From NCBI GenBank assembly GCA_012521805.1, contig JAAYLQ010000055.1:1-53335 (forward strand): DNA of 53,335 nt, read 5' to 3'. Positions 48,203-53,335 of this stretch are shown piece after piece. Position 1 is the first letter of the stretch. Each line of letters starts with the position of its first letter. A program made the position numbers and the translations under genes. The DNA is from Bacillota bacterium. Its GTDB lineage: Bacteria; Bacillota; Limnochordia; Darwinibacteriales; DTU012. Under the pieces are notes generated by a model. The model did no database searches. It was not told where the DNA came from and saw nothing but the letters and a program-made list of their open reading frames with translations.

Positions 48203-49432
48203 ATGTACGAAAAGACGATTTTACCAAATGGTATTCGCGTAGTATCTGAATTCATACCCAATGCTAGATCGATTACGCTCGGTGTATGGTTTGAAGTTGG
48301 CAGTAGAAACGAACAAGATGACCAGCATGGTTACAGCCATTTTATCGAGCATATGGTGTTTAAAGGCAGCGAGAAGTACAATGCCCGCACGATCGCTGAA
48401 TTGATCGAAGGAGTAGGGGGCTATCTCAACGCATTTACAAGCAAAGAGTTTACTTGTTATTATGCCAGCTTTCTAGATCAGGATTTTAAACTGGTTGTCG
48501 ATATCCTTCATGAAATGCTGCTTAAACCAACATTCTTGCCAGAGGAAATAGAACGAGAGCGGCAGGTGATTCTGGAGGAAATAAAATCATGTGAGGATTT
48601 ACCTGAAGATCATGTGCATGAACTGTTTTACGCACAGCTTTGGCCGGAACAGTCCCTGGGCAGACCAATTTTAGGTACGGTCGACAGCGTGGCGGAAGCC
48701 AACCGGAATGATTTACTTAAGTTCTACCGCCAGTATTACACACCGGATCGCTTAGTAATAGCTGCTGCGGGGAATATTGAGCATCAAGTGTTAGTTGATG
48801 AATTTGCCTGGAAATTTGAAGCTCTAAATCCAAACTGCAGCGGGGAAAAAGCCATGCCATCAGCTCCAACTCCAGCGCAGCAGCAGGCATTATACGTTCC
48901 CAAAAATCTGGAGCAGGTTCATCTATGCTTTGGCGGGCCAGGACTCTCACGTTTCAACTCAGAGTTAGAGACACTGCGTTTGCTTGATGCTCTAATTGGT
49001 GGAGGCATGAGCTCTCGTTTATTTCAGGAACTGAGGGAAAACCGAGGGTTAGTTTATAATGTTTACTCTGATTATGCGGCTTATCGGGATACAGGTGAGT
49101 ATCTAATTTATGCGGCTTGTTCCCGCAGTAATTACCAGCAGGTAATCGATGTGCTGCGCCAGGAATTAAAACTTTTGGTCCAAAGCCCAGTAACTGAAAT
49201 GGAACTTGGACGGATCAAAGGACAGGTGAAAGGCAATCTTGTTTTATCATTAGAAAGCTTTATGAACCGCATGGTGAAACTAGCGAAGGATGAGTTTAAT
49301 CATAACCGCTTAGTTTCGGTTGATGAATCGTTAGCTTTAATTGACCAAATTTCTGCTCTGCAGCTGCATGCACTGGCTCAGCAAATTCTCGACGTGGATA
49401 ACTGGAACCTAGTGGTGTTGGGACTTGCATAA
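48203..49432 (+). CDS. M16 family zinc peptidase (MlpA/YmxG-like)
   Basis: HxxEH motif FIEHMVFKGSEKYNARTIAELIEGVGGYLNAFTSKEFTCYYA; GGGMSSRLFQELRENRGLVYNVYS. Confidence 0.95.
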   Translation: MYEKTILPNGIRVVSEFIPNARSITLGVWFEVGSRNEQDDQHGYSHFIEHMVFKGSEKYNARTIAELIEGVGGYLNAFTSKEFTCYYASFLDQDFKLVVDILHEMLLKPTFLPEEIERERQVILEEIKSCEDLPEDHVHELFYAQLWPEQSLGRPILGTVDSVAEANRNDLLKFYRQYYTPDRLVIAAAGNIEHQVLVDEFAWKFEALNPNCSGEKAMPSAPTPAQQQALYVPKNLEQVHLCFGGPGLSRFNSELETLRLLDALIGGGMSSRLFQELRENRGLVYNVYSDYAAYRDTGEYLIYAACSRSNYQQVIDVLRQELKLLVQSPVTEMELGRIKGQVKGNLVLSLESFMNRMVKLAKDEFNHNRLVSVDESLALIDQISALQLHALAQQILDVDNWNLVVLGLA

Positions 49433-49501
49433 TTTTCAAAATATGGTATTTTATTAATAGACTTCGTTGCCCAAGGGAGGTAGTGGAAGGAGTGATCCTT
49501 T

Positions 49502-50818
49502 ATGGCTGCTATCCGCGGAGTCTGTTTTTGTATTCTTCTCATTCTTATTTTTATCCAAATCCAGCTTCCCATATCTGCTGCAGCTTTACTTGAGCTAGAA
49601 GAGATTTCGGGCTCGCTACGCATTAACCCCATGAATTTCACTACTAGTGCCCGATTTGGTGTTGATTGTGAATTGACTCAACGTCATCGTTTATCTGGAA
49701 ATTTAACCCTAGAGTCAACAAGTTCTCAACTACTGGGGTTAACCTTTCATGATTGGGTCTTTGACTATCATCCCAGTACTAAACGTCAGCTTTCTCTGAA
49801 GTACAACAGCCCCTTGATCACTTCAAGCGACTTATTTCGCATTATCCACAAAGATTTTTACAGCGAGAAACATTTAGCCCTAGTGTATCAGCAGCAGGAA
49901 CCTCATCTAGTAGTGGTTGTGGCTGAACAGGTTCCAAGCAAAACACGCCTACCCAGCTTTGTCGGTTTCGGACAGTTTGCCTTGAGTAACGACCCGTGGA
50001 CATGGCAGATTTCCGCTGCACGCTACGATTCCCAATATTATCCTGAATTTGGACGCAACTGGGGTGAGATAGTGGTGCTGGAGACAGGTGTAGAACATGA
50101 TTCCTTTTCTTTGGAGGCAGGTTGGGGCTATCTTCAGCGCCATGATTACCAGGAAGAATCTTTGGATTTCAACCAGAGTCAGGCGCTGGCTGTAAATCTT
50201 CAAGTAAACAGCGCTCAGATATCGTTTGCTCCTAGTTTCAGGATTATCGGCAGAGAATTTGATTGGCCGCTCACGAAAACCAAACCATATCCAAATGATC
50301 GGATTGGTTTTGGGACTCAGACTCGGTTTAACGCAGAACCTTGGCGAATTACATTTAACTGGGATCGCTTTAAAGCCCTCAGCAGCGAGCGGACTTACGC
50401 GACCACAAATTTGCAGTTGGAATATGGAGAGGCCAATCAAAGCATATCAGCGGCTGTACACTGGCACCCTAATCGCCGGGTAGTATTGGGATATCGTCGC
50501 GGAGATCTGACAATTGAGTGGAGGCCGGATCTGCCGCAAATCAAGTATAGGCGCCAGATTGGGAAACACGAAATTAGCTTGGCTGGTTCATCTTTAAACC
50601 TGCACCGCATAGAATATCGGTATAACAGCAATCTGAGTTTACATTTGATCTATAAGTTTGAAGCTAAAACTGGACGTCAATTCTATTATGGAGCTCTGCG
50701 TTTGAACAGCGGAAACGGCTGGTGTGAAATCAAGTATGGGCAGAGTGACCGGGGTCAGTTAACTGCTGGATTTAATCACAGTCCGCACTTAGAAGTATCA
50801 TGGGGTTGGAGTTGGTAA
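49502..50818 (+). CDS. Secreted beta-rich protein, putative outer-membrane beta-barrel; no recognised family
   Basis: Signal peptide MAAIRGVCFCILLILIFIQIQLPISAAA; alternating polar/hydrophobic strands throughout; C-terminus HLEVSWGWSW; GGAGTG upstream. Confidence 0.7.
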   Translation: MAAIRGVCFCILLILIFIQIQLPISAAALLELEEISGSLRINPMNFTTSARFGVDCELTQRHRLSGNLTLESTSSQLLGLTFHDWVFDYHPSTKRQLSLKYNSPLITSSDLFRIIHKDFYSEKHLALVYQQQEPHLVVVVAEQVPSKTRLPSFVGFGQFALSNDPWTWQISAARYDSQYYPEFGRNWGEIVVLETGVEHDSFSLEAGWGYLQRHDYQEESLDFNQSQALAVNLQVNSAQISFAPSFRIIGREFDWPLTKTKPYPNDRIGFGTQTRFNAEPWRITFNWDRFKALSSERTYATTNLQLEYGEANQSISAAVHWHPNRRVVLGYRRGDLTIEWRPDLPQIKYRRQIGKHEISLAGSSLNLHRIEYRYNSNLSLHLIYKFEAKTGRQFYYGALRLNSGNGWCEIKYGQSDRGQLTAGFNHSPHLEVSWGWSW

Positions 50819-50821
50819 GGT

Positions 50822-51091
50822 GTGCGGTATTCCGATTTGGCTGGGAAGGAAATTGTCTGTTTTGATGAGGGGATTCGTTTAGGAGTAGTCAACGATACAG
50901 ATCTAATCATCAATACCGAGACTGGTGTGGTAGATTCAATAATTATCCCTTATGGTAAGAGCTGGTTTAACAAACGAATGATTGTAATCCCGTGGCATGG
51001 AATAAAAAAAATCGGCCGGGATTTAATCATTGTTGATTTAACCACTGCTCAGGATTACGATGATCTGGTGCGCAGACTTGATCTAGAATAA
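50822..51091 (+). CDS. ymxH: YlmC/YmxH family sporulation protein (PRC-barrel)
   Basis: MRYSDLAGKEIVCFDEGIRLGVVNDTDLIINTETGVVDSIIIP. Confidence 0.9.
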   Translation: MRYSDLAGKEIVCFDEGIRLGVVNDTDLIINTETGVVDSIIIPYGKSWFNKRMIVIPWHGIKKIGRDLIIVDLTTAQDYDDLVRRLDLE

Positions 51092-51152: not shown

Positions 51153-51656
51153 TTGTCAACAGTTATAGGGGTATTTAATCAAGTTGAGGCTGCCGAAAAG
51201 GCAGTAAAAGTACTGCGGGAAAAGGGATTTACTGAGAACGAAATCTCAATTATCGCCAAAGATGAAGGTAAAACCAGAAAACGCGACATGGAAGTCGGCG
51301 GCGATTTCGGGGCTGAACAAAATATTGCTGATGGCACAGCTTGGGGCGGCGCTTTAGGAGGTCTAGCTGGAATTTTAGCCGGAGTAGGCGCCCTTGCCAT
51401 TCCTGGTATTGGACCGATTGTGGCTGCTGGTCCTTTAGCTGGAGCCCTGTCAGGAGCTGTAACCGGTGGTGTAGCCGGAGGCTTGATTGACTTAGGAATT
51501 CCTGAGGAACGTGGTCAGGAGTACGAGCAGAAGTTAAAAGCCGGTGGGATCTTGGCTGTTATCGAAACCAGCCCCGAAAAGGTAAACGAGGCAAGCGAAA
51601 TTTTGCGGAGCAACGGTGCTAAAGATGTTGAAAGTCATGGCGGTGAAGATAACTAG
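51153..51656 (+). CDS. General-stress/YflT-like protein with glycine-rich hydrophobic centre
   Basis: VIGVFNQVEAAEKAVKVLREKGFTENEISIIAKDEGK; Gly/Ala-rich helix; TTG 51153 after AAAGGGGG. Confidence 0.8.
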   Translation: MSTVIGVFNQVEAAEKAVKVLREKGFTENEISIIAKDEGKTRKRDMEVGGDFGAEQNIADGTAWGGALGGLAGILAGVGALAIPGIGPIVAAGPLAGALSGAVTGGVAGGLIDLGIPEERGQEYEQKLKAGGILAVIETSPEKVNEASEILRSNGAKDVESHGGEDN

Positions 51657-51763: not shown

Positions 51764-52528
51764 ATGAAACGAGTTCTAGTAAGTGGTGCTTTAGGTAAAA
51801 TGGGTAGCGAAGTAATCAAAGCAGTGAGGCAGGCTGCTGATTTGGAAGTTGCTGCCGGTGTCGACCCAAGGGCAGAATATGATGTGGATGGAGTCAAAAT
51901 GTTTACAGAACTTGCCCCTGCGATTACAGCGACCAAACCGGATGTGGTAGTTGACTTTACTCAACCTGGCGTGGTGGTGGAAAACCTTAAAACCTGCTAT
52001 GAATTAGGTGTTAGAGCAGTAGTAGGTACCACCGGATTAACAGCAGATGATGTGGAGAAATTAAAGCGTGAACTTGTCAGGGAAGATTGGGCCGCTTTGA
52101 TTGCCCCTAATTTTGCTATTGGAGCAATTTTAATGATGCGTTTTGCGCAGGAAGCAGCTCGGTATTTTCCCAATGTGGAAATTATTGAATACCATCATTC
52201 GCAGAAAAAGGATGCTCCCAGCGGGACTGCTATTAAAACTGCAGAAATGATTAATCAGGTACTAACCGGTCAGCGAGAAACTAATCCTGATGAATTTGAA
52301 AAGCTTCCCGGTGCCAGGGGAGCTGCCAGCAGTGCAGTTCACATTCACAGTGTTCGCCTACCGGGTTATGTTGCTCACCAGGAGGTTATCTTTAGTTCTG
52401 CAGGACAGCTGTTGACTATTAAGCATGATTCAACGCATCGTGAAAGCTTTATGCCTGGAGTTTTGCTGGCGATCCGCAAAATTGGTGAATTGGAAGGAAT
52501 CGTGTACGGGTTAGAGCAGATCTTGTAG
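51764..52528 (+). CDS. dapB: 4-hydroxy-tetrahydrodipicolinate reductase
   Basis: KRVLVSGALGKMGSEVIKAV, VVGTTGLT, IEYHHSQKKDAPSGTA; ATG 51764 after GGAGGAG. Confidence 0.95.
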   Translation: MKRVLVSGALGKMGSEVIKAVRQAADLEVAAGVDPRAEYDVDGVKMFTELAPAITATKPDVVVDFTQPGVVVENLKTCYELGVRAVVGTTGLTADDVEKLKRELVREDWAALIAPNFAIGAILMMRFAQEAARYFPNVEIIEYHHSQKKDAPSGTAIKTAEMINQVLTGQRETNPDEFEKLPGARGAASSAVHIHSVRLPGYVAHQEVIFSSAGQLLTIKHDSTHRESFMPGVLLAIRKIGELEGIVYGLEQIL

Positions 52529-52610: not shown

Positions 52611-53335
52611 ATGGTTGTTGATCTATCTGGGATACCTGTCGCTATGCTGGGCGGGGATCGGCGTGAATTGGAGTTAGCCAAAGCACTGCTTCAGTTAAAC
52701 GTGGATTTGCGGTTAGTAGGGTTTCATCCGCATCCAGATCTTACAGCAGCACAGCTGTACAGTGATCCTGAAGCTGCGGTTGCAGGGATAAGGGCTTTGA
52801 TTGCTCCCATGGCAAATACAGACTTGGAAGGTAGAATCTTTACTCGTTTAGATCAGGGGGAGCCGATCGATCTAACCCAGCTGTTGCCGAAACTGCCGCA
52901 GGATACAATTGTGCTGATTGGAGTAGCAAAACCGGTTATCAGAGAACTTGCGCAGAAGCATAGTCTGAAGTTGGTTGAAACTGCAGAGATTGATGAAATT
53001 GCTATACTGAACTCGATACCCACCGCCGAAGGTGCAATTCAGTTGGCAATGGAAGAGCTTCCCATTACAATCCATGGATCACGCTGCATGGTAGTAGGTT
53101 TTGGTCGCTGCGGCCAGACTTTAGCTGCCAGCTTAGCAGCCTTAGGGGCATCGGTAACGATCGTTGACCGAAATAAATCAAAATTAGCCCGCGCCTTGAC
53201 AATGGGGCTGAATTCTGCTCCACTGTCAGACCTGCATCTGCATACCAATTTTGATGTAATCTTTAATACAGTACCTGCCCTGGTAATTACAAACGAATAT
53301 CTGAAAAAGCTTAATTTATCAACGCTGATCATCGA
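52611..53335 (+). CDS. dpaA: Dipicolinate synthase subunit A (3'-truncated by window edge)
   Basis: ATG 52611 after GGGAGGAGG; MVVDLSGIPVAMLGGDRRELELAKAL ... NSIPTAEGAIQLAMEELPITIHGSRCMVVGFGRCGQTLA; open to window end, absent from ORF track. Confidence 0.93.
   Translation, partial: MVVDLSGIPVAMLGGDRRELELAKALLQLNVDLRLVGFHPHPDLTAAQLYSDPEAAVAGIRALIAPMANTDLEGRIFTRLDQGEPIDLTQLLPKLPQDTIVLIGVAKPVIRELAQKHSLKLVETAEIDEIAILNSIPTAEGAIQLAMEELPITIHGSRCMVVGFGRCGQTLAASLAALGASVTIVDRNKSKLARALTMGLNSAPLSDLHLHTNFDVIFNTVPALVITNEYLKKLNLSTLII

Follow-up and report, generated by a model that had tools for sequence, protein, structure and literature searches.

Several kinds of large beta-barrel are known from bacterial outer membranes, among them the ushers PapC and FimD, which have 24 strands, and the LPS translocon LptD, which has 26; the usual pattern of outer-membrane proteins is one of long surface loops and tight periplasmic turns. 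The Limnochordia are a deep class of the Firmicutes, used in arguing for a two-membraned Firmicutes ancestor, and their outer membranes are little described. Members of this class are reported to be diderm, among other things from electron microscopy of cultured representatives (PMC11456536). OmpM of diderm Firmicutes is reported to be a tether and nutrient uptake channel (PMC10628300). Here we describe a gene (49502–50818, + strand; 438 aa) located in a window of 53,335 nt, this being the whole stretch of Limnochordia DNA that was analysed. A sequence-only reading of the window had proposed that the product, hereafter referred to as OMP, is an outer-membrane beta-barrel of a diderm spore-former. 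Based on 31 aligned relatives, an AlphaFold2 model and Foldseek searches, we assign OMP to a Limnochordia-specific family whose members are very probably outer-membrane beta-barrels.

Inspection of the gene bore out what had been read from its letters, namely a 438-aa ORF with a signal peptide, no second transmembrane helix, polar/hydrophobic alternation and an aromatic C-terminus. The ATG is preceded at 9 nt by a Shine-Dalgarno-like AAGGAG (49487–49492, + strand), and the N-terminus holds a strongly hydrophobic stretch with an A-rich site at its end. The predicted signal peptide (residues 1 to ~28; 49502–49585, + strand) appears in the structural model as a separate helix followed by a low-confidence linker. 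Beyond the N-terminus, no helix-like hydrophobic stretch was detected by hydrophobicity, the best later 19-mer reaching 0.87; hydrophobicity and the model thus agree on a Sec signal peptide and on the absence of another transmembrane helix. Within the strands, the mean hydrophobicity difference between the two faces was 2.85, compared with 1.24 ± 0.18 in 2000 within-strand shuffles, which is a deviation of ~9 SD. The last strand, HLEVSWGWSW (50786–50815, + strand), carries the putative C-terminal beta-signal. A terminal F or W is found in each of the 31 aligned relatives, as opposed to 10 of the 262 neighbouring ORFs (4%) at the same loci, a comparison in which the relatives are not independent of each other and the nominal p-value accordingly says little, and one distant class member of the family has L as its last residue. 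On comparative grounds the ORF is a genuine gene, since relatives at 16–41% identity remain open in many genomes. The copy in genome G023 (loci L045 and L030) holds runs of N and is seemingly interrupted, but the apparent break is more likely due to masked or missing bases in the database entry than real.

When AlphaFold2 was supplied with the 31-sequence alignment, OMP was modelled with a pLDDT of 91.6 and a pTM of 0.77; the single sequence without relatives gave an unusable model with a pLDDT of 31.8. The aligned model is a confident meander of ~26 strands (26 by DSSP), an even number, in which 13 odd-to-even hairpins have a mean length of 7.7 residues and 12 even-to-odd turns a mean length of 2.6 with a maximum of 5 (Mann-Whitney p=0.0006). 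The three long hairpins, of 17–23 residues, are all placed on one face and the tight turns all on the opposite face, where the labels surface and periplasmic presume a periplasmic N-terminus. With Foldseek, 220 PDB matches were obtained at E<=0.001; the best 50 of these 220 were without exception outer-membrane barrels, comprising ushers, LptD and TonB-dependent receptors. The TM-scores of OMP against known barrels were only ~0.3–0.52 with large rmsd, and OMP as modelled is therefore without a close structural template. We infer the closure of the barrel from the model, and to this extent one might think of a soluble or surface all-beta protein, such as a propeller or sandwich, whose aromatic end is accidental. 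That explanation is nonetheless very improbable in view of the signal peptide, the F/W end in 31 of 31 sequences, the amphipathic alternation, the loop topology and the exclusive presence of outer-membrane barrels among the best 50 PDB matches. The predicted fold thus resembles an outer-membrane barrel, as the sequence-only reading had supposed.

The earlier inability to assign OMP to a family was shared by our searches, as no credible match was obtained with the Pfam and NCBIfam HMMs, and no sequence match was found in the PDB. One of the 31 members matched Porin_4 weakly (E=0.0023), and no SLH domain was found in any of them. By profile search, the family was detected in 53 of the 73 genomes of the class, while a phylum-wide sample of 300 genomes gave 6 matches, in class members only. 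Within the sample searched, the suggestion of a lineage-specific protein is thereby supported, with a family that appears restricted to the class Limnochordia. Profile comparisons (hhalign) of OMP with the LptD-like protein, BamA, the YjbH-like protein and the small OMP of the same genomes revealed no similarity, and homology to any of them is not supported. Searches for related loci with OMP alone or with its alignment returned no loci; the loci were instead anchored on the conserved stress protein encoded downstream, which also revealed divergent and missing OMP copies. The literature that we searched on Limnochordia outer membranes contained no description of OMP; Taib et al. 2020, the principal inventory of Firmicutes outer-membrane genes, entered this search by way of other publications. 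In the databases searched, the family is so far unnamed and undescribed, outer-membrane barrels themselves being a known kind. As a class-wide unannotated family with a fixed genomic slot, OMP could be used as an outer-membrane marker, even in MAGs.

A barrel of this type requires a membrane and an insertion machine, and both are indicated for the host. By Pfam, contig C204 of the host genome encodes BamA with POTRA domains, LptF/G, LptC, an LptA-type protein, FabZ and LpxB, as well as a YjbH-like protein and an SLH protein resembling OmpM, and OmpH-like proteins were recognised on this contig from size and position only. BamA was present in all 61 of 61 relatives. Together with the spore genes of the window and the presence of SpoIVA across the class, these genes support the view of the host as a diderm spore-former, in which OMP would find its target membrane as well as the BamA needed for insertion. 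The search for lptD and lpxA-C that had been proposed gave a mixed outcome: an LptD-like gene, by position, and LpxB were found, and LpxA and LpxC were missing. Of the 73 class genomes, 33 have LpxA, and those without it are exactly the 37 members of the order and three genomes of f6; LpxC was split in the same way among the 61 genomes tested. A divergent LpxB was kept in 38 of the 40 LpxA-negative genomes, mostly with scores of 155–207 bits and in two cases from fragments, as compared with ~262–337 bits in LpxA-positive genomes. In the LpxA-negative genomes examined, the Lpt genes were retained in the same cluster, and BamA was retained where examined. This gene content suggests that the outer membrane of the order lacks classical lipid A, and a possible reading is that Lpt moves a non-lipid-A glycolipid in such a membrane. 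Having seemingly dropped lipid A synthesis while keeping BAM and parts of Lpt, the order makes its membrane composition directly testable. The idea that OMP itself might indicate the loss of lipid A was rejected, as relatives also occur in the LpxA/LpxC-carrying families f8, f10, f11 and f16.

Some further observations were made on the envelope genes. The Kdo transferase (PF04413) exceeded its cut-off in 1 of the 73 class genomes, and since it is nearly absent although 33 genomes have LpxA, the LPS of the LpxA-positive genomes may be Kdo-less. The LptD-like protein of the outer-membrane cluster (730 aa; L115:6106-8298, where L115 denotes G000:C204:1-20000) was named by its position and by weak PF04453 matches in relatives; it has no Pfam match itself and, unlike typical LptD, a non-aromatic end. 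The same cluster contains two small putative outer-membrane proteins (L115:3534-4966), a YjbH-like one of 215 aa and an unassigned one of 258 aa, both of which end in F.

Nearly all of the inspected OMP genes occupy one slot, in the order M16 peptidase, often a MazG-like gene, OMP, ymxH, stress protein, dapB and dpaA, with dpaA followed by further dpa/asd genes. In the window, all on the + strand, the M16 peptidase gene (48203–49432) matched NCBIfam YfmH/YfmF below cut-off, whereas the ymxH-family gene (50822–51091; TIGR02888) and dapB (51764–52528; TIGR00036) exceeded their cut-offs. The glycine-rich stress-type protein (51153–51656), 73–86% identical across the order, served as synteny anchor, and dpaA, for dipicolinate synthase A (52614–53335; NF006162 and TIGR02853), is cut by the window end. 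G039 is an apparent exception, having unrelated genes upstream and no dapB after, with ymxH and the stress protein kept. Because ymxH starts ~3 nt past the OMP stop codon, the two genes are likely co-transcribed. The M16 peptidase was rejected as a partner of OMP and is best regarded as an upstream neighbour that is not obligate: G001 has M16 without OMP, and G005 (L035) and G008 (L004/L038) have OMP without an adjacent M16.

It had been proposed that OMP may be linked to sporulation or the envelope. Of the spore genes that had been recognised in the window, SpoIIIAA, SpoIIIAE and SpoIVB scored above the NCBIfam cut-offs and the truncated DpaA was matched, while Spo0A remained just under its cut-off. 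An outer-membrane barrel dedicated to sporulation or to the spore envelope would fit the conserved slot beside ymxH, dapB and dpaA, the short gap to ymxH and the fact that 68 of the 73 class genomes carry SpoIVA. However, OMP and SpoIVA proved to be uncoupled in both directions. All four genus-mates (4/4) have SpoIVA and have lost OMP; in G001 the M16 gene is kept and OMP alone is missing from the slot, and in G002–G004 (loci L034, L032 and L033) both are missing. Conversely, G009, G012, G016 and G058 keep OMP and lack SpoIVA, two of these genomes (G012 and G058) being 97–98% complete. In addition, no OMP homologue was detectable in the SpoIVA-positive families f7, f9 and f12–f15. The proposed link to sporulation is therefore not supported, and a barrel dedicated to sporulation is quite unlikely. 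Given this two-way decoupling, the DAP/dipicolinate neighbourhood by itself is no evidence, as far as gene content goes, of a spore role for OMP, and by the same kind of comparison the losses in genus-mates show that OMP is not essential to outer-membrane assembly. OMP is more probably a channel than a protein of sporulation.

The pattern of conservation bears on this channel role. Conservation in OMP is highest in three long loops (0.55–0.63, as compared with 0.41 for the strands), all of which are encoded on the + strand: residues 102–124 (N..H.TS.D.FR...KN; 49805–49873) between strands 5 and 6, residues 250–266 (50249–50299), which link strands 13 and 14 and directly precede R267, and residues 413–429 (G..D.G[NQR]; 50738–50788) between strands 25 and 26. 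In the first, order-level alignment R267, P323, R369, K385, G413, D416 and G418 were invariant, and in the class-wide set G269, R369, D416 and G418. Conservation reaches >=70% at thirty strand positions, with 26 facing in and 4 facing out, where the facing was set by hydrophobicity, so that the inward bias of charged residues is partly circular. The mean conservation of the two faces differed weakly (p=0.07). The conserved inward positions and the long loops suggest an internal charged constriction in the modelled barrel, the overall in/out difference being weak.

We propose that the signal peptide would take OMP across the inner membrane and that BamA would insert it into the outer membrane, where it would form a monomeric barrel of ~26 short strands. 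The three conserved surface-side loops would fold inward and, with R267, R369, K385 and D416, probably narrow the interior of the barrel, such that OMP would serve either as a diffusion channel selective for its substrate or as a translocation pore. If OMP is an outer-membrane barrel, the chances that it serves as a channel are in our view about even. The fuller picture of a plug-less, 26-stranded monomeric barrel that is unrelated in sequence to LptD, exclusive to Limnochordia and translocates a specific substrate across a lipid-A-free outer membrane is a tentative one and rather unlikely as a whole.

Instead of being a diffusion channel, OMP might be a translocon, working in secretion or moving lipids or polymers as ushers and LptD do. 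This is suggested by its best Foldseek matches, PapC/FimD and LptD, and by the predicted strand count, but it is unlikely given that OMP, when its profile was compared with that of the LptD-like protein from these genomes, stayed below 10% probability (hhalign maximum 9.8%), that this LptD-like protein has its own gene in the outer-membrane cluster, and that the modelled barrel fills the mature protein, leaving no plug or usher-type extra domain. Among the closest described systems, OMP shares with LptD the outer-membrane barrel and, by prediction, the 26 strands, yet it is devoid of the OstA/jellyroll N-terminal domain: in the model the signal peptide leads directly into the barrel, no Pfam hit exceeded its cut-off, and the mature part has ~410 residues. 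The ushers PapC and FimD gave the best Foldseek E-values and are likewise large barrels, but in OMP the plug, NTD and CTD are absent, there is no Pfam usher match, and no adjacent pilus genes were seen. The TonB-dependent receptors BtuB and FepA are also large barrels among the Foldseek matches, from which OMP differs by the absence of a plug domain and of a family match. From OmpM and the general porins of diderm Firmicutes, OMP is set apart by its lack of SLH, the single weak Porin_4 match and the separate SLH-OmpM-like protein of its genome, but it resembles them in being an outer-membrane barrel and a presumed channel.
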